This document shows positions 7,332 through 17,200 of a stretch of 64,000 nt of DNA, piece by piece. Source of the DNA: Kaistia adipata DSM 17808 (GTDB taxonomy: Bacteria > Pseudomonadota > Alphaproteobacteria > Rhizobiales > Kaistiaceae); assembly GCF_000423225.1 (NCBI RefSeq), contig NZ_AUHO01000007.1, forward strand, positions 248,001 through 312,000, given 5' to 3'. The first letter of the stretch is position 1. The number at the start of each line of letters is the position of its first letter. The notes beneath the pieces are model-generated. The model saw nothing but the letters and a program-made list of their open reading frames with translations, was not told the origin of the DNA and made no database searches. Position numbers and translations under genes: made by a program.

Positions 7332-7795
7332 TGCGCACTTCAGTCATCAATGGCGGCATCGTCACGAATGTTGTCCTCGCGGGCGATGGTTGGGTGCCGC
7401 CCGAGGGGGCCGCTGCCGTCGCGAGCGAGACGGCCAATATCGGCGACTTCTATGCCGATGGCGTCTTTACGCCGCCGCCGGCGCCGGAGCCGCCGCTACC
7501 GCCGCCGCCGAGCGAGATCTCGCGCCGGCAGTTCTTCCAGGCGCTCGCCATGCCGGACTATGGGCTGATCACCGAGGCGGAAGCGCTCGCGGCAGTGCAG
7601 GCCGGCGCCATTCCGGCCGCCTTCGAGGCGTTCATCACAACGCTGCCGGCCGGCCAGCAGTTCGGCGCCCGCATGCTCCTCGCCGGCGCCGGCACCTTCG
7701 AGTTCGAGCATCTGATCTCGATCACCTTCGGCGGCGTCCAGGGCTGGACCGACGAACAGCGCGCGGCGCTGTGGCGGTTCGCCGCCGCGCTCTGA
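7331..7795 (+). CDS. Small tail-fibre-associated protein, possible fibre chaperone
   Basis: This 154-residue protein has its ATG overlapping the stop of the fibre gene. It has a short N-terminal beta-rich domain (TSVINGGIVTNVVLAGDGWVPP), a proline hinge (PPPAPEPPLPPPP, residues 48-60), and a C-terminal helical region (EISRRQFFQALAMPDYGLIT...WTDEQRAALWRFAAAL). The layout resembles short proteins encoded just after fibre genes that assist trimerisation or cap the fibre. The C-terminal helical part resembles domains in fibre-assembly-like proteins of rhizobial phages. The function is inferred from position only. Confidence 0.6.
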   Translation: MRTSVINGGIVTNVVLAGDGWVPPEGAAAVASETANIGDFYADGVFTPPPAPEPPLPPPPSEISRRQFFQALAMPDYGLITEAEALAAVQAGAIPAAFEAFITTLPAGQQFGARMLLAGAGTFEFEHLISITFGGVQGWTDEQRAALWRFAAAL

Positions 7796-7873
7796 CGGCC
7801 GGCTGGCCCGGATAGCCAGCAACCAGCACGACATCCACCCGGCCGCAGGGCCGCCTCGAAAGGAGAGCCGAAT

Positions 7874-9304
7874 ATGGCTTCTGTGTCCTTCCACCATGGC
7901 ACGCGTGTATTCCAGAGCGCCGAAACGCCGGTGCTCGTCCGTACCGCGCAGACGGCCGTCATCGGCCTGATCGGCACGGCCGAGGACGCCGACGCGGTCA
8001 AGTTCCCGCTCAACAAGCCGATTCCGATCCTGCGGCCGCAGGATGCCGACGGCCTCGGCAGCGACGGAACGCTCGCCGATGCGATCGACAGCATCTTCGA
8101 CCAGGTCGGCTGCCCGATTGTGATGGTGCGCGTCGAGGAAGGCGCGACGGTCGCCGATACCTGGGCCAATCTCGTCGGCAGCCAGGTCGCCTTTTCCGGC
8201 GTGCATGCCTTTCGCCGCGCGGTCTCCGATGGGCTCTACAAGCCGAAGCTGCTTCTCGCGCCAGGCTTCACCCAGACTTCGCCGGCGGATGGTATCGCGT
8301 CCATCGCCGTGACGACCGGCGGAACGGGATATGTCGACGGAACGACCGTCGTGGCGATCGCGGGAACTGGCGGCGTTGGCGCCGAGGCCAAAGCCGTCAT
8401 CGAGGCCGGCGTGATCACGTCGATCCTCGTCACCAAGCCCGGCTACGGCTATACCGGGACGATCACGGTCACGATCACCGGGGCCGGCACCGGCGCCGCG
8501 GCGACGGCGACCAAGGGGGCGACCATCAATCCGGTCGTCGCCGAGCTGATGGGCGTCGCCGAAAGCCTCAAGGCGATGGCCTATGTCGACGGCCCGGACA
8601 CGACCGACCAGGCGGCGGTGCAGTATCGCGGCCTGATCAACTCGGGGCGCATCTTCATCTGCGATCCGAAGGTGCTGAAGTTCGACACCGAGCTTGCCGT
8701 CAATGTGCCGCAGCCGTCGTCGCCGATCTGGGCGGCCCGCCAGGCGAAGATGGATCTCGAGCAGGGCTTCTGGTGGGCCGGCTCGAACGTCGATGTCGCC
8801 GGCATCGTCGGCATCAACCGGCCGATCGAGTATGGCGCGCAGTCGAACTATCTGAACGAGAACCGCGTCAACACCATCGTCAACATCAACAATACCGGCT
8901 TCCGTTTGTGGGGTGTGTGGACCTGCGACAGCGATCTGCTCTGGCAGTTCGTCTCGGTTCGCCGCACGGCGGATGCCGTGAACGAGGCGCTCGAGGCGGC
9001 CTATATCGAATTCGTCGATCGCCCCTTCACCAAGGCCAACCTGAAGTTCCTGATCGAGGCCGGCCGCGCCTACCTCCGCACGATGGAGCTCGAGGGCGCG
9101 ATCCTGCCCGGCTCCGACGTCTGGCTTCTCGACAGCAACACCGACGAGGAGCTGGCGCAGGGAATCGTCAAGCTGGGCGTCAAGTTCGAGCCGCCGACGC
9201 CAATGGTCGATGTCCGGATCACCAGCCATCGCAACATCGCCGCCTATGAGTTGCTGCTCAACCAGGTGGCGCAGGAGATCAGCTCCGGCTCGCTGGGCAG
9301 CTGA
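7874..9304 (+). CDS. FI: Contractile tail sheath protein FI with inserted beta-repeat domain
   Basis: The 476-residue tail sheath protein is preceded by AAAGGAG. N-terminal (HHGTRVFQSAETP, VIGLIGTA) and C-terminal (WTCDSDLLWQFVSVRRTADAVNEALEAAYIEFVDRPF) segments are typical of the P2 FI/Mu sheath family. The sheath contracts to drive the tube through the envelope. P2 FI is 396 residues. The excess is accounted for by an inserted block at residues 137-220 made of two imperfect copies of an SIxVTxGGxGYxxGTxxVxIxGxGxG beta repeat. The insert probably decorates the sheath surface. A short hairpin and the tube gene follow. Confidence 0.92.
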   Translation: MASVSFHHGTRVFQSAETPVLVRTAQTAVIGLIGTAEDADAVKFPLNKPIPILRPQDADGLGSDGTLADAIDSIFDQVGCPIVMVRVEEGATVADTWANLVGSQVAFSGVHAFRRAVSDGLYKPKLLLAPGFTQTSPADGIASIAVTTGGTGYVDGTTVVAIAGTGGVGAEAKAVIEAGVITSILVTKPGYGYTGTITVTITGAGTGAAATATKGATINPVVAELMGVAESLKAMAYVDGPDTTDQAAVQYRGLINSGRIFICDPKVLKFDTELAVNVPQPSSPIWAARQAKMDLEQGFWWAGSNVDVAGIVGINRPIEYGAQSNYLNENRVNTIVNINNTGFRLWGVWTCDSDLLWQFVSVRRTADAVNEALEAAYIEFVDRPFTKANLKFLIEAGRAYLRTMELEGAILPGSDVWLLDSNTDEELAQGIVKLGVKFEPPTPMVDVRITSHRNIAAYELLLNQVAQEISSGSLGS

Positions 9305-13284: not shown

Positions 13285-14414
13285 ATGAAAACACCCGTCG
13301 CCGAAATAGAAGTCAATGGCCGGGCCGTCGCCTCGATCTTCAACGAGCGGTTGATCTGCGTCACCATCACGGACAAGGAGGGGGTGACGTCCGACACGAT
13401 TTCCTGCGAACTGAGCGACGGCAATCCATTTGCCGCGATCCCGCGGAAGGGGGACACCATCACCGCCTCGCTCGGTTATCTCGAGACCGGTCTCGCCTTC
13501 TTCGGCAGCTATACGGCCGATGATCCGGAGGTGCGGTGCCTGCCCTATGGCATGACCGTGAACGGCAAGGGGGCAAACGTCCGCGACCAGGCCAAGCAGC
13601 ACCGCTCCCGCCATTGGGACAAGAAGACGGTCAAGGACATCATCTCCGAGATCGCCTCGGAAAACGGCCTTTCGGCCATCGTCGACGACGAGATCGGCGC
13701 GCATGAATATGACTGGTTCGGCCAGCAGGATGAAAGCGACCTGCATGTCGTCGAACGCTTGGCGCGCCGCCACGGCGCACTCTTCTCGATCAAGGACGGC
13801 AAGCTGATCTTCGCGGCCAAGGGCAGCGGCAAATCGGCAAGCGGCAAGGGGCTGACCGCAGTCGTCGCGTCTCCCGCCAATATCGTCGAGGGAACCTGCC
13901 GCACGAATTTCGCGCACCGGAATCGGTTCGGGAAGGTGAAGGCGCGCCACCACGACCGCGACGAGGCCGAGCTGATCGAGGTCGAGGCGGAGAGCGACGA
14001 GGGGGGGCGGCGGACTACACGCTGGCCGAGCCCTTCGCCGACGAAGAGGAGGCGAGAAGGGCGGCGGCAGCCACGGCTCGGGATCTCAAATCCGAGACCA
14101 TCCGGACCTCCGTCACGCTGTTCGGCGACCCGTCCATTCGAGCCGGCGCGCCGTTCCGATACTCAGGTGTCCGGCCCGAGCTCGACGCGATCGAGTTCAT
14201 CATCGAGTCGGCGACGCATGTGATTTCCAAGGCAGGCTACACGGCGCAGGTGGAGGCGAAGCTGAAGCCGGAAGCGGAGGAAGTCGGCGGCAAGGGGCAG
14301 GGGACGGGCTCCGGATCCGACAAGCCCGCCGCGCCGGCCGGCAATGCGTCACCCACGCCGACGATCCCGGATCCCGTCGCGCCGTCCGGACAGGGCGGCA
14401 TCGGCAGCCGGTAG
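13285..14414 (+). pseudogene. D: Late control/baseplate hub protein D, frameshifted at a G7 run
   Basis: Two frames together encode one gpD-family protein of about 376 residues (P2 D is 387). Frame one runs from ATG 13285 and encodes the N-terminal hub domain (KTVKDIISEIASENGLS, YDWFGQQDESDLHVVERLARRHG). At 14001-14007 a run of seven G breaks the frame. The downstream frame then continues with ADYTLAEPFADEEEAR, GAPFRYSGVRPELDAIEF and a Pro/Gly tail ending at 14414. One extra G would restore the frame. If left uncorrected, the first frame ends at 14223 in an arginine-rich nonsense tail. The cause may be a homopolymer sequencing error, a true inactivating deletion, or a -1 slip on G GGG GGG. 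Confidence 0.82.
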
Positions 14415-14453
14415 GTCGACCTCGATCCTGAAGTAATCATGGCGCCCGAATAG

Positions 14454-14484
14454 AAAACCCGCCGGGCGGGGCAGCTCCGGCGGG
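14454..14484 (-). terminator. Rho-independent terminator of the small RiPP-like gene
   Basis: On the minus strand, arms CCCGCCGG and CCGGCGGG (8 bp, 11-nt loop) are followed by TTTTC, ten bases after the stop codon of the 31-residue gene. It also sits between two convergent transcription units and so insulates the phage D gene from the cargo genes. Confidence 0.75.
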
Positions 14485-14493
14485 CCTGTCAGA

Positions 14494-14589
14494 TTAGTCG
14501 CAGTTGTTGCTGCACAGCGGCACTTCTGCCGCGATCCGCTGCAGCAGCGCGCTCTTGTCGAGTATCGGCTTGGCATAGGTCTTCTTCAT
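14494..14589 (-). CDS. 31-aa RiPP-precursor-like peptide (lasso-type leader motif)
   Basis: This very short gene was found by reading the minus strand between D and the lysis genes. It has a textbook ribosome binding site, AAGGAGG, seven bases before the ATG, and an intrinsic terminator right after the stop. The peptide opens with MKKTYAKPILDKSALLQ, which fits the Y-x-x-P-x-L leader motif recognised by lasso-peptide RRE proteins and seen in many alphaproteobacterial 'putative RiPP precursor' proteins. It ends with VPLCSNNCD, a short two-cysteine core-like tail. No cyclase, protease or RRE gene is nearby, so maturation, if any, would need enzymes encoded elsewhere. The coding assignment is well supported; the RiPP role is an inference. 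Confidence 0.68.
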   Translation of the reverse strand: MKKTYAKPILDKSALLQRIAAEVPLCSNNCD

Positions 14590-14766
14590 TCTCAGCCCTC
14601 CTTGCTTCGTTGCTCGTACAGCCTGCCGTCCTCGGCGGTCTGTGTCGATGACGTGACGGCAACAGTCTTTCGAAAGATGAACGATCCCAAGTGGGTCGCG
14701 CAGGCGCGCGGCTACCTGCGAAGGTCTTGGGCTGCAGGGTCGGGCTCGGTGCAGTCCAGGTAGTCT

Positions 14767-14787
14767 AGGGGCGCTTGAGGCGCCCCT
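14767..14787 (-). terminator. Hairpin after the 190-aa cargo gene
   Basis: Eight-base perfect arms AGGGGCGC and GCGCCCCT with a five-base loop lie five bases beyond the stop of the 190-residue gene. No clear T tract follows on the minus strand, so termination would be partial, allowing some read-through into the small peptide gene downstream. Confidence 0.5.
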
Positions 14788-14791
14788 ATAA

Positions 14792-15364
14792 TTACTCGAT
14801 GCCTGCCTGGGTCAGCAATTCCATTGAGTCGTAATAGGCCCCTAATACTTGCAGCGCCTCGTCGATCGCCTGTCGGTTCGTGAAGCTTCCGCCATACAAG
14901 TTTGCGACCCGGGCGGGAACATTACCGAGGGATGCGACGTCGGCACTCAACTGCTCGGCCAGCTGAGGCGCGTGTTGCGCCAGCATTGTGGCCCAGCTGT
15001 GGGCGCCGCTCGTTTTGAGGCAGAGCCCTGACAGAATGCTATTGAATTCGCGAAGATCCTGCCCACCAAGCACAATGGAGCAGCTGCCCACTCTGAATGG
15101 GCGTTCCAGTGGACGCAGCGCGTCAGTTTCCAGCAAGCGGAGGGCTCGGTCCGCATGATGGATTAGGTCGAGCGTTGTCGTCACGAGCGGCTTCAGGCTG
15201 GTGCTGTTCTTGCTGAAGAAGCCGGCGGTCCCGGCGAGAGGACTAGACAGCTGTGCTACAGCAACTGCCCCCTGCAAGACCTGCGAGATGATGAGCCAAG
15301 GATCTACCTTCGCTCCTGAACGAATTCCGACGGTCGGGCCGGGGAGAGCGGTCTGCACGTTCAT
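14792..15364 (-). CDS. Hypothetical prophage cargo protein, 190 aa
   Basis: The frame is open upstream to 15532, but the protein-like part starts at ATG 15364 (MNVQTALPGPTV), giving 190 residues. It has a moderately hydrophobic helix near residues 25-50 (PWLIISQVLQGAVAVAQL), a helical middle, two cysteines in VGSCSIVLGG and SGLCLK, and an acidic C-terminus. I recognise no family. It is encoded against the late operon, has lower coding GC than its neighbours and lies immediately upstream of the RiPP-like gene on the same strand. This is the position typical of phage morons (cargo genes). A role in superinfection exclusion or immunity is possible but unproven. Confidence 0.55.
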   Translation of the reverse strand: MNVQTALPGPTVGIRSGAKVDPWLIISQVLQGAVAVAQLSSPLAGTAGFFSKNSTSLKPLVTTTLDLIHHADRALRLLETDALRPLERPFRVGSCSIVLGGQDLREFNSILSGLCLKTSGAHSWATMLAQHAPQLAEQLSADVASLGNVPARVANLYGGSFTNRQAIDEALQVLGAYYDSMELLTQAGIE

Positions 15365-15532
15365 CGCGACATCCCAATAGATCGTTGTTGTTGCCTTTCT
15401 GTCCGGCGGACCCCGGACGCTCGCGATATGGTCACTGTTTCCTGGAGCTTCAATTGCGCGTTCTCCAACTCGCCGAGATCGAGGCAATGGCGGCGCGCAC
15501 CGTGGTCGCCCGTGACTTCGTCCAGGTGGCAA

Positions 15533-15821: not shown

Positions 15822-16034
15822 ATGCTCGTCAACAACTGGCGCGCGGTGCTTTGCCGTGCGTGGTCCATCCGTCTGCTTCTACTCGCCGGCGTGCTGTCTG
15901 GCGTCGAGGTGGCGCTTCCCCTGATCGGGATCGAAGTCATCCCGCCTCGTCTGTTCGCGGTCTTGTCCGGCATCGTCGCCGCGGCCGCCTTTGTTGCTCG
16001 TCTCCTCGCACAGAAAGGGATCACAGATGCGTAG
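15822..16034 (+). CDS. Holin-like membrane protein (DUF7940-like)
   Basis: The 70-residue protein has an N-terminal amphipathic segment (NNWRAVLCRAWSIR) and two hydrophobic helices: LLLLAGVLSGVEVALPLIGI and FAVLSGIVAAAAFVARLLAQ. Size, topology and position directly before the endolysin indicate a class II-type holin or a DUF7940-family lysis protein. It would let the endolysin act on the cell wall at the end of the lytic cycle. The ATG follows CCGGAG. The 3' end overlaps the endolysin start by eight bases. Confidence 0.75.
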   Translation: MLVNNWRAVLCRAWSIRLLLLAGVLSGVEVALPLIGIEVIPPRLFAVLSGIVAAAAFVARLLAQKGITDA

Positions 16035-16533
16035 CAAGCGCGCGCAGGCGGCGCTGGCCTCCGGGCTCGGCGTCGTGGCACTGACGGCCGCCTATCTCAC
16101 CGTGCCGTGGGAGGGCGTCGAGAACGCAGCCTACTGGGATGCCATCGGCAAGGCCTGGACGGTCTGCGCCGGAGAGACGAAGGGCGTGAAGCCGGGCGAC
16201 AGCTACACCGACAAGCAGTGCATCGACATGCTGCACCGGCGCATGGAGCGGGACTATCGCCAACCGCTGCAGCGATGCATTCGCGGCTTCGACGCGGCGC
16301 CGCTGAGCGTACAGGCCTCCTTCCTCGACCTCTCCTGGAATGTCGGCGTCAGCGCCGTCTGCCGGTCGACAGCAGCCCGGCGCGCGATGGCGAAAGACTG
16401 GCCGGGCGCCTGCGAGGCGATGACCTGGTTCAACCGGGCCAGCGGCCGTGTCGTGCGTGGTCTCGATCTTCGTCGCAAGGAAGGCGACGCGCATCGGATC
16501 GGCGATCGCGAACTCTGCCTGGCGGGGCTGTGA
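16027..16533 (+). CDS. SAR-type endolysin, GH24 lysozyme
   Basis: This 168-residue glycoside hydrolase family 24 lysozyme cleaves peptidoglycan. The N-terminal hydrophobic stretch (residues 8-26, ALASGLGVVALTAAYLTV) is rich in Ala/Gly with few bulky residues, like the signal-anchor-release helix of the P21 endolysin. The catalytic triad is visible as E29 (WEGVENAAY), D38 (YWDAIG) and T45 (WTVC). Six cysteines could form disulfides. It starts inside the end of the holin gene and stops overlapping the next ATG, so the lysis cassette is tightly coupled. Confidence 0.9.
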   Translation: MRSKRAQAALASGLGVVALTAAYLTVPWEGVENAAYWDAIGKAWTVCAGETKGVKPGDSYTDKQCIDMLHRRMERDYRQPLQRCIRGFDAAPLSVQASFLDLSWNVGVSAVCRSTAARRAMAKDWPGACEAMTWFNRASGRVVRGLDLRRKEGDAHRIGDRELCLAGL

Positions 16534-16850
16534 TGGGGGCGTTGTCGAAGATCCTGCGATCGACCGAGGGCGGACGTCTGATGTTTTGGTGTCCCGGATG
16601 CGATGGGGCGCATCAGGTCGGTGTCGGCGAGGGGGCCGGGCGGCGCTGGAGCTATAATGGCAATCCCGACGCTCCGACGTTCATGCCGTCCGTGCTGGTC
16701 ACCTACAACGGCGCTGATGCCGATACACCCGGTGGGGTTCCGTCCGTCTGCCATTCGTTCGTGACCGACGGGCGGATCCAGTTTCTGGGTGACTGCACTC
16801 ACGCGCTGGCCGGCCAGACGGTCGATATACCGGAATGGGAGGCGTCATGA
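16533..16850 (+). CDS. DUF6527-like small metal-binding phage protein
   Basis: The 105-residue protein carries two cysteine/histidine clusters: FWCPGCDGAHQV near residue 18 and VCHSFVTDGRIQFLGDCTHALAGQ near residue 72. Between them is the aromatic motif WSYNGNPDAPTFMPSVLV. This pattern fits the DUF6527 family, which is found in phage lysis regions and is often misnamed as ammonia monooxygenase. The residues suggest a zinc site; the function is unknown. Its ATG overlaps the endolysin stop, and its stop overlaps the Rz start. Confidence 0.78.
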   Translation: MGALSKILRSTEGGRLMFWCPGCDGAHQVGVGEGAGRRWSYNGNPDAPTFMPSVLVTYNGADADTPGGVPSVCHSFVTDGRIQFLGDCTHALAGQTVDIPEWEAS

Positions 16851-17200
16851 TTGCCTCGCCCCTCGGCCGCTGGCTCGCGGCCGGCGCGTTTGCTCTTGCG
16901 TTGATCGCGTTCGCATCCGTCACCGCCTATTTCGTCGGCCGCAGCGACGGCGCCGCCGGCTGCGAACAGCGCTGGCAGTCGAAGATGTCGGCCGAGCAGA
17001 CCAGGCAGGCCTATGCCCGTGCGCAGGCGCTCGACGCGGCGGTCGCCCGCGAACTCGCCCGCGCGGCCGAGAATGAAGCTCTGGAAAAGAAGGTGTCCGA
17101 CTATGAGGCTGAACTCGCACGCGAGCCGGCGCAGGCTGGCGGCTTTGATTGTCGTCTGCGCCCTGCCGATCTTGAGCGCCTTCGCCTGCTCCGACGATAG
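16847..17200 (+). CDS. Rz-like inner-membrane spanin
   Basis: The 117-residue protein has a short cytoplasmic start, one N-terminal membrane helix (WLAAGAFALALIAFASVTAYFVG, about residues 9-31) and a long charged periplasmic coiled coil (QALDAAVARELARAAENEALEKKVSDYEAEL). This is the layout of the i-spanin Rz, which together with the o-spanin Rz1 fuses inner and outer membranes in the last step of lysis. The start overlaps the previous stop (ATGA). Confidence 0.82.
   Translation: MIASPLGRWLAAGAFALALIAFASVTAYFVGRSDGAAGCEQRWQSKMSAEQTRQAYARAQALDAAVARELARAAENEALEKKVSDYEAELAREPAQAGGFDCRLRPADLERLRLLRR

Follow-up and report, generated by a model that had tools for sequence, protein, structure and literature searches.

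A 31-codon gene on the reverse strand of the window, a stretch of 64,000 nucleotides from Kaistia adipata DSM 17808, very probably belongs to a phage moron and encodes a RiPP precursor which is matured in trans by a lasso-like cassette of the host that lacks a cyclase. By computation, the gene belongs to a family with members throughout the genome, the family co-occurs with the cassette, and a serine is constant in the parsed cores from Kaistia and phages. The features are listed in Table 1.

Table 1. Features of the window and of the host cassette (window positions, or positions on contig 2 of the same genome, G000:C2)
Feature	Position	Strand	Basis or remark
Precursor peptide gene, 31 aa	14494..14589	(-)	reads MKKTYAKPILDKSALLQRIAAEVPLCSNNCD-stop; leader MKKTYAKPILDKSALLQRIAA, predicted core EVPLCSNNCD
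Shine-Dalgarno AAGGAGG	14597..14603	(-)	sequence; 7 nt 5' of ATG
Intrinsic-terminator-like hairpin and T-rich tract	14447..14487	(-)	folding
Element TGTTGCC-N8-ATCGAC	14644..14664	(-)	54 nt before ATG
D-like baseplate/tail gene, neighbour	13285..14414	(+)	reads in two frames
Lysis genes: holin, endolysin, Rz-like spanin	15822..17200	(+)	PHROGs
13-codon relic VDLDPEVIMAPE-stop	14415..14453	(+)	like 3' tip of the L010 gene facing the peptide gene
Relic of 5' end of TIGR02594-family, tail-lysozyme-like gene (MNDPKWVAQARGYL)	14671..14717	(+)
NTP_transf_5 protein	G000:C2 741264-742364		94.0 bits
PqqD-like leader binder (predicted)	G000:C2 742766-743059		PqqD 42.1 bits
B2 protease (lasso-type)	G000:C2 743056-743484		Transglut_core3 52.2 bits; lasso_biosyn_B2 57.4 vs cut-off 33
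HprK-like kinase	G000:C2 743484-744494

The precursor gene and its prophage

The preliminary description had regarded the gene as real, and the open reading frame, the ribosome binding site, the hairpin and the leader motif (Y5-xx-P8-x-L10) were all confirmed; the paralogues described below lift it beyond chance and, together with signs of selection, ruled out a chance open reading frame. The hairpin folds with -24.6 kcal/mol (z -2.59), and 2 of 200 shuffled sequences were equally good. Rfam gave no match in window 13800-15400, and a tRNA scan of the whole window found none. The suggested comparison with lasso and RiPP precursor models was run against NCBIfam and stayed below cut-off throughout: the best model for the window peptide was NF033528 with 11.4 bits versus 33, and no curated model reached its cut-off with any of the precursors tested. 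What stands of the original assignment is a RiPP-precursor-like gene; its lasso type does not, given the lack of a model match, a cassette without cyclase and a tail of 10 residues.

Upstream of the gene lies the element TGTTGCC-N8-ATCGAC, which recurs without mismatch 9 times across 14 Kaistia genomes. Eight of these occurrences are in the six genomes that are positive for the peptide, and 7 of the 8, the window copy included, are placed 54-57 bases 5' of a precursor start (G000, G002, G007, G010 and G012; none was found exact in G011). In the window's own genome (G000) there are only two exact matches, both at precursors. The exceptions are found in the negative genome G009 (one copy) and in G010 (one copy with no known precursor adjoining). 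Allowing one mismatch makes the pattern frequent and unspecific. Of 42 upstream regions, 8 have a looser form (background 0.0038); most family members, tandem arrays included, thus do not carry the element. It may act as a promoter or as an operator.

The placement of the gene as prophage cargo between the D gene and the lysis genes was borne out by PHROGs, which assigned baseplate-hub (gpX-like) and D-like tail proteins to one flank. The prophage was also correctly described as devoid of a maturation gene, the only PF13471 match of the genome being on another contig. The D-like gene changes frame near a homopolymer run around 13990-14030, so that either a defect of the prophage or an error of the assembly is possible. 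A 189-aa protein (window 14792-15361, reverse strand) adjoins the peptide gene and is possibly further cargo; it has no match in PHROGs or NCBIfam and only sub-threshold ones in Pfam.

Two gene relics flank the unit. L010 is a second prophage of the same genome, in which a gene of unknown function converges on the peptide gene; the window aligns with L010 at 81% over 85 bases, from the peptide stop through the 13-codon relic. We had considered the facing gene of L010 and L012 to be a tail gene, which was dropped for want of a PHROGs match. The second relic (47 bases, 81%) corresponds to a TIGR02594-family gene; in L247, the prophage most closely related to this one, that gene is intact and directly follows D (L242 is contained identically within L247). 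The unit probably arrived together with a segment of another phage.

By the D protein, the nearest relative (L247, 90%) lies in the Kaistia genome G003, which has neither peptide family nor cassette; this nearest P2-like prophage has no peptide gene, and the TIGR02594-family gene directly follows D there. The D protein relates 24 phage loci, one of them the window's own prophage. The suggested search of related prophages for the same gene covered the other 23 loci, the nearest relative included and several of them short: tblastn gave no convincing copy there and one partial match at E 0.6. With the gene missing from the closely related P2-like phages, a single prophage pair is the basis for its history. 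The unit has the look of a moron that was inserted close to the lysis genes: it is absent from the nearest relative and has the hairpin, and on the promoter side there is the conserved element only.

The peptide family and the host cassette

Members of the family are peptides of about 28-40 residues with a K-x-Y-x-x-P-x-L...AA leader and a variable, Ser-containing tail. A search of the genome (12 contigs) with the single peptide gave 8 places, seven of them non-self at E 4.5e-7 to 0.7; L008 proved not to be a member when its sequence was read. A nine-row profile gave 11 places, namely the window gene and ten more, among which one lies in the second prophage, five are in tandem on contig 3 and one (L057) is beside the cassette. 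At the array loci L043, L044, L046 and L050, tandem genes lie between an FGGY-type sugar kinase and an adenine deaminase-like gene, both named by sequence reading. With paralogues across its own genome and relatives in other Hyphomicrobiales, the peptide is no "orphan", as it had been called. The leader is conserved and the tail varies; Tyr and Pro are invariant in 42 aligned members, and the penultimate leader residue is Ala in the window copy (IAA) and Thr in some relatives. For the leader, pN was 0.28 versus a pS of 0.51 near saturation (538 pairs), and the close pair L054/L060 differs by 9 synonymous versus 3 nonsynonymous changes.

Outside Kaistia, a Mesorhizobium relative (WP_258589706.1) carries the NCBI name "putative RiPP precursor". 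In the PLSDB plasmids, the query P0001 gave two weak matches, one of which was a true relative when read, and a Mesorhizobium peptide as query retrieved four Mesorhizobium records. At L235 (Aquibium, 7662-8268), four precursors have Thr in a VT(L/V)I tail motif, and three of these tails lack Ser; this is perhaps a Thr-modified branch. At L282 (G251:C69, 2077-2588, reverse strand), a tandem group of three YxxP precursors, whose tails are longer, adjoins a B2 and a cyclase relative; these are apparently true lasso precursors.

Scans of IMG/VR found ten phage contigs with precursors (4, then 6 more; two of the first 4 apparently represent the window's own genome); the INPHARED phages gave no peptide match. 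All seven phage-type loci tested with PHROGs, window included, have an endolysin gene within 2 kb of the precursor (L012, L272, L273 and L275 were left out). A scan of IMG/VR for the cassette-type B2 yielded 10 pattern matches, of which 0 were confirmed.

The clearest cis arrangement observed is that of L119 (G298:C256, 6735-8110), where five tandem precursors lie directly upstream of genes for PqqD, a B2-type transglutaminase, an HprK-like protein and NTP_transf_5. This arrangement led to a genome-wide test of co-occurrence. Within the genus, six of the 14 Kaistia genomes were positive with the profile, and PF13471 is present in 6/6 positive and 0/8 negative genomes (Fisher 3.3e-4); note that the six positive genomes may be one clade and hence do not count as six independent events. 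For the order, 297 genomes were searched with the peptide profile and for B2: 14 were profile-positive and 13 had a B2 scoring 42-52 bits, with 12 having both, 2 the peptide only, 1 B2 only and 282 neither (p 1.5e-18). G102, the one genome with B2 only, carries three divergent precursors next to that B2. The two profile-positive genomes without B2 have weak partial matches (E 0.004-0.007) with no precursor readable in the fetched stretches, and G182, one of the 12, has weak matches (E 9e-4 and 0.005) and a readable peptide without the YxxP proline.

The B2 proteins were divided into those with 42-52 bits and those with 57 bits or more, a boundary set after seeing the scores; a cassette-type locus outside the sample, G015, has a B2 with 57.1 bits. 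Six genomes with only higher-scoring B2 had no match to the peptide profile. None of the seven higher-scoring loci that were fetched has all four cassette genes, and 6/7 have a relative of a lasso cyclase (Asn-synthetase-like) by tblastn; PF00733 lies within 4 kb in five and nowhere on the contig in two. One of them, G105, has a cyclase together with relatives of HprK and NTP, the combination found in lasso clusters with tailoring. In the five Mesorhizobium-like genomes, which are additional to these seven loci, an Asn_synthase match is at most 1 kb away from the higher-scoring B2.

The host genome has one such cassette (PqqD-like, B2, HprK-like and NTP_transf_5), with no lasso cyclase in it. 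Relatives of its four proteins are present in 19/19 cassettes examined, and the Mesorhizobium lasso cluster L155 matches none of them. Among the named cassette loci (the best 80 of 85, mostly Mesorhizobium), PqqD was found in 80, HprK in 80, NTP in 79 and a relative of the lasso cyclase query in 1 (L232). A precursor was present in the fetched stretch of 39 of these 80; a relaxed scan added none. In the other 41, regular expressions detected no precursor in the fetched flanks, where genes may have been missed; with the same proviso, we read these loci as candidates for use in trans. Around 18 cassettes there is no Asn_synthase match up to 9 kb away; the closest one, at 9.5 kb in G159, is part of a separate lasso cluster. 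The nineteenth cassette, G102, has no match at E 1e-10 or better on the cassette contig. In five Mesorhizobium-like genomes (G129:C67, G094:C45, G159:C1, G229:C33 and G248:C1), some 12-29 kb separate the cyclase-less cassette from a lasso-type cluster that has a cyclase. The B2 Cys and His are invariant in 19/19 cassettes, and the third catalytic residue is not conserved by eye. Beside the cassette of the host no exporter gene was recognised; the next large gene is an acyltransferase. A literature search which mostly did not extend to subscription journals found no paper on a cyclase-less PqqD-B2-HprK-NTP class and none on phage-borne precursors of this kind.

The host cassette and its co-occurrence with the family strongly support the earlier suggestion that the peptide borrows host enzymes. 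Of the genes proposed for a search in the host genome, one for an RRE-type PqqD was located; one for a cyclase near the cassette was not.

Proposed maturation and alternative readings

Serine occurs in 44/44 parsed cores from Kaistia and phages, where shuffling gives a mean of 32.9 and 0/2000 shuffles reach the observed number; 8 further Kaistia or phage cores bring the total to 52/52. Outside Kaistia, Ser is present in 79/86 cores and Ser or Thr in 86/86. This constancy of Ser (or Ser/Thr) suggests the hydroxyl group as a candidate target of modification. The core Ser, which is internal and not C-terminal, is a likely target of the kinase, and we lean towards phosphorylation as the specific modification. 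In the kinase, the His-Lys-Asp-Asp motif of the paeninodin type is invariant in 19/19 cassettes. Its scores are below cut-off in Pfam (13.5 vs 33.3) and NCBIfam (28.4 vs 200). For a structural model of the kinase (mean pLDDT 89.1), the matches are to phosphoenolpyruvate carboxykinases (best E 1.1e-8, TM about 0.5), whose fold is common to HPr kinase.

We consider it highly probable that the precursor is matured by this cassette. The peptide would be made from its own transcription unit and its YxxPxL leader bound by the PqqD-like protein of the host. The HprK-like kinase would then phosphorylate the core Ser, the NTP_transf_5 protein may decorate the core further, and the B2 protease would cut after ...IAA. 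The predicted product is short and linear, close to EVPLCSNNCD, and may contain a disulfide.

A genuine lasso peptide whose cyclase is encoded elsewhere in the host is highly improbable, although the YxxPxL leader and a B2 above the lasso_biosyn_B2 cut-off would suit it. The absence of Asn_synthase around the cassettes argues against it, as do the genomes themselves: in five of the six positive Kaistia genomes, all Asn_synthase matches are weak and partial (strongest 28.6 bits), and G000 has its one strong match (375 bits) on contig 1 and its cassette on contig 2. Moreover, a lasso core needs length for ring and tail, with Asp or Glu at 7-9, and cores of 7-13 residues are too short for a threaded ring. 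A lasso precursor was rejected on these grounds, the missing cyclase and the short core, and on the lack of a model match.

Other readings accept the family and dispute the role of the prophage copy. It could act unmodified, or as a decoy occupying PqqD and B2 of the host, which would fit phage contigs that carry the leader without the enzymes and tails that vary widely; the Ser in every parsed Kaistia or phage core and the small number of nonsynonymous differences over the full gene length of one closely related pair suggest, however, that the tail matters, and we regard this reading as unlikely. A decaying passenger of recombination in a damaged prophage, with no present role, is suggested by the two frames of the D gene and the two relics; the intact reading frame, ribosome site, upstream element and terminator-like hairpin speak against it, as do the homologues that other phage contigs have close to endolysin genes, and it appears quite unlikely. 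Maturation in trans of a moron-encoded precursor remains our preferred reading.

If it is true, the 80 named loci (the best 80 of 85, mostly Mesorhizobium) would represent a lasso-derived RiPP type without ring closure, and phages would add only a substrate to a peptide-modifying pathway of the host, which would be a new kind of phage cargo. One cassette with many substrates is, moreover, a directly testable system. A tentative proposal goes further: short linear, Ser-phosphorylated and perhaps nucleotidylated or glycosylated peptides from cyclase-less lasso-like cassettes of Hyphomicrobiales could form a separate RiPP class. Temperate phages of various hosts would exploit it by carrying nothing but precursor genes, placed close to their lysis genes, and the peptides might serve as signals or in lysogenic conversion.

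Comparison with known systems

Judged by its genes, the system would resemble the front end and the tailoring of phosphorylated lasso peptides, yet its product would not be a lasso peptide. With lasso systems it shares the YxxPxL leader and the B1 (RRE) and B2 proteins, both encoded in the host genome and not in the prophage; the penultimate Thr, the Asn-synthetase-like macrolactam cyclase and the core length are lacking. The closest likeness is to paeninodin (PadeK) and pseudomycoidin (PsmK/PsmN): in common are the leader motif, the split B1/B2, a His-Lys-Asp-Asp kinase, a nucleotidyltransferase-like protein and a constant core Ser. In published work on them, His-Lys-Asp-Asp is the motif of the tailoring kinases, kinases of this kind phosphorylate a C-terminal Ser in both peptides, and PsmN leads to the addition of hexose (PMC9266682). 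Unlike those systems, the one described here has no cyclase, a short core whose Ser is internal, so that a substrate with C-terminal Ser is lacking, many scattered precursors, and carriage by phages.

The HPr-rel-A models (TIGR04352, TIGR04353) likewise name an HprK-related kinase together with a PqqD-family chaperone. Neither protein of the host exceeds their cut-offs, the kinase having the 28.4 versus 200 bits given above and PqqD not being listed for TIGR04353; a B2 and a precursor family are present here in addition. WP_258589706.1 has the same leader and a short Ser-containing tail; it is known by its product name only, and the 8 kb around it have no annotated maturation gene. Phage morons are similar in that a small reverse-strand unit lies between tail and lysis genes and is absent from the nearest relative, but the cargo here is a precursor that would need host enzymes. 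In prochlorosins, one maturation set serves many scattered substrates; the present system differs from them in its enzymes and in having some of its substrates on phages.
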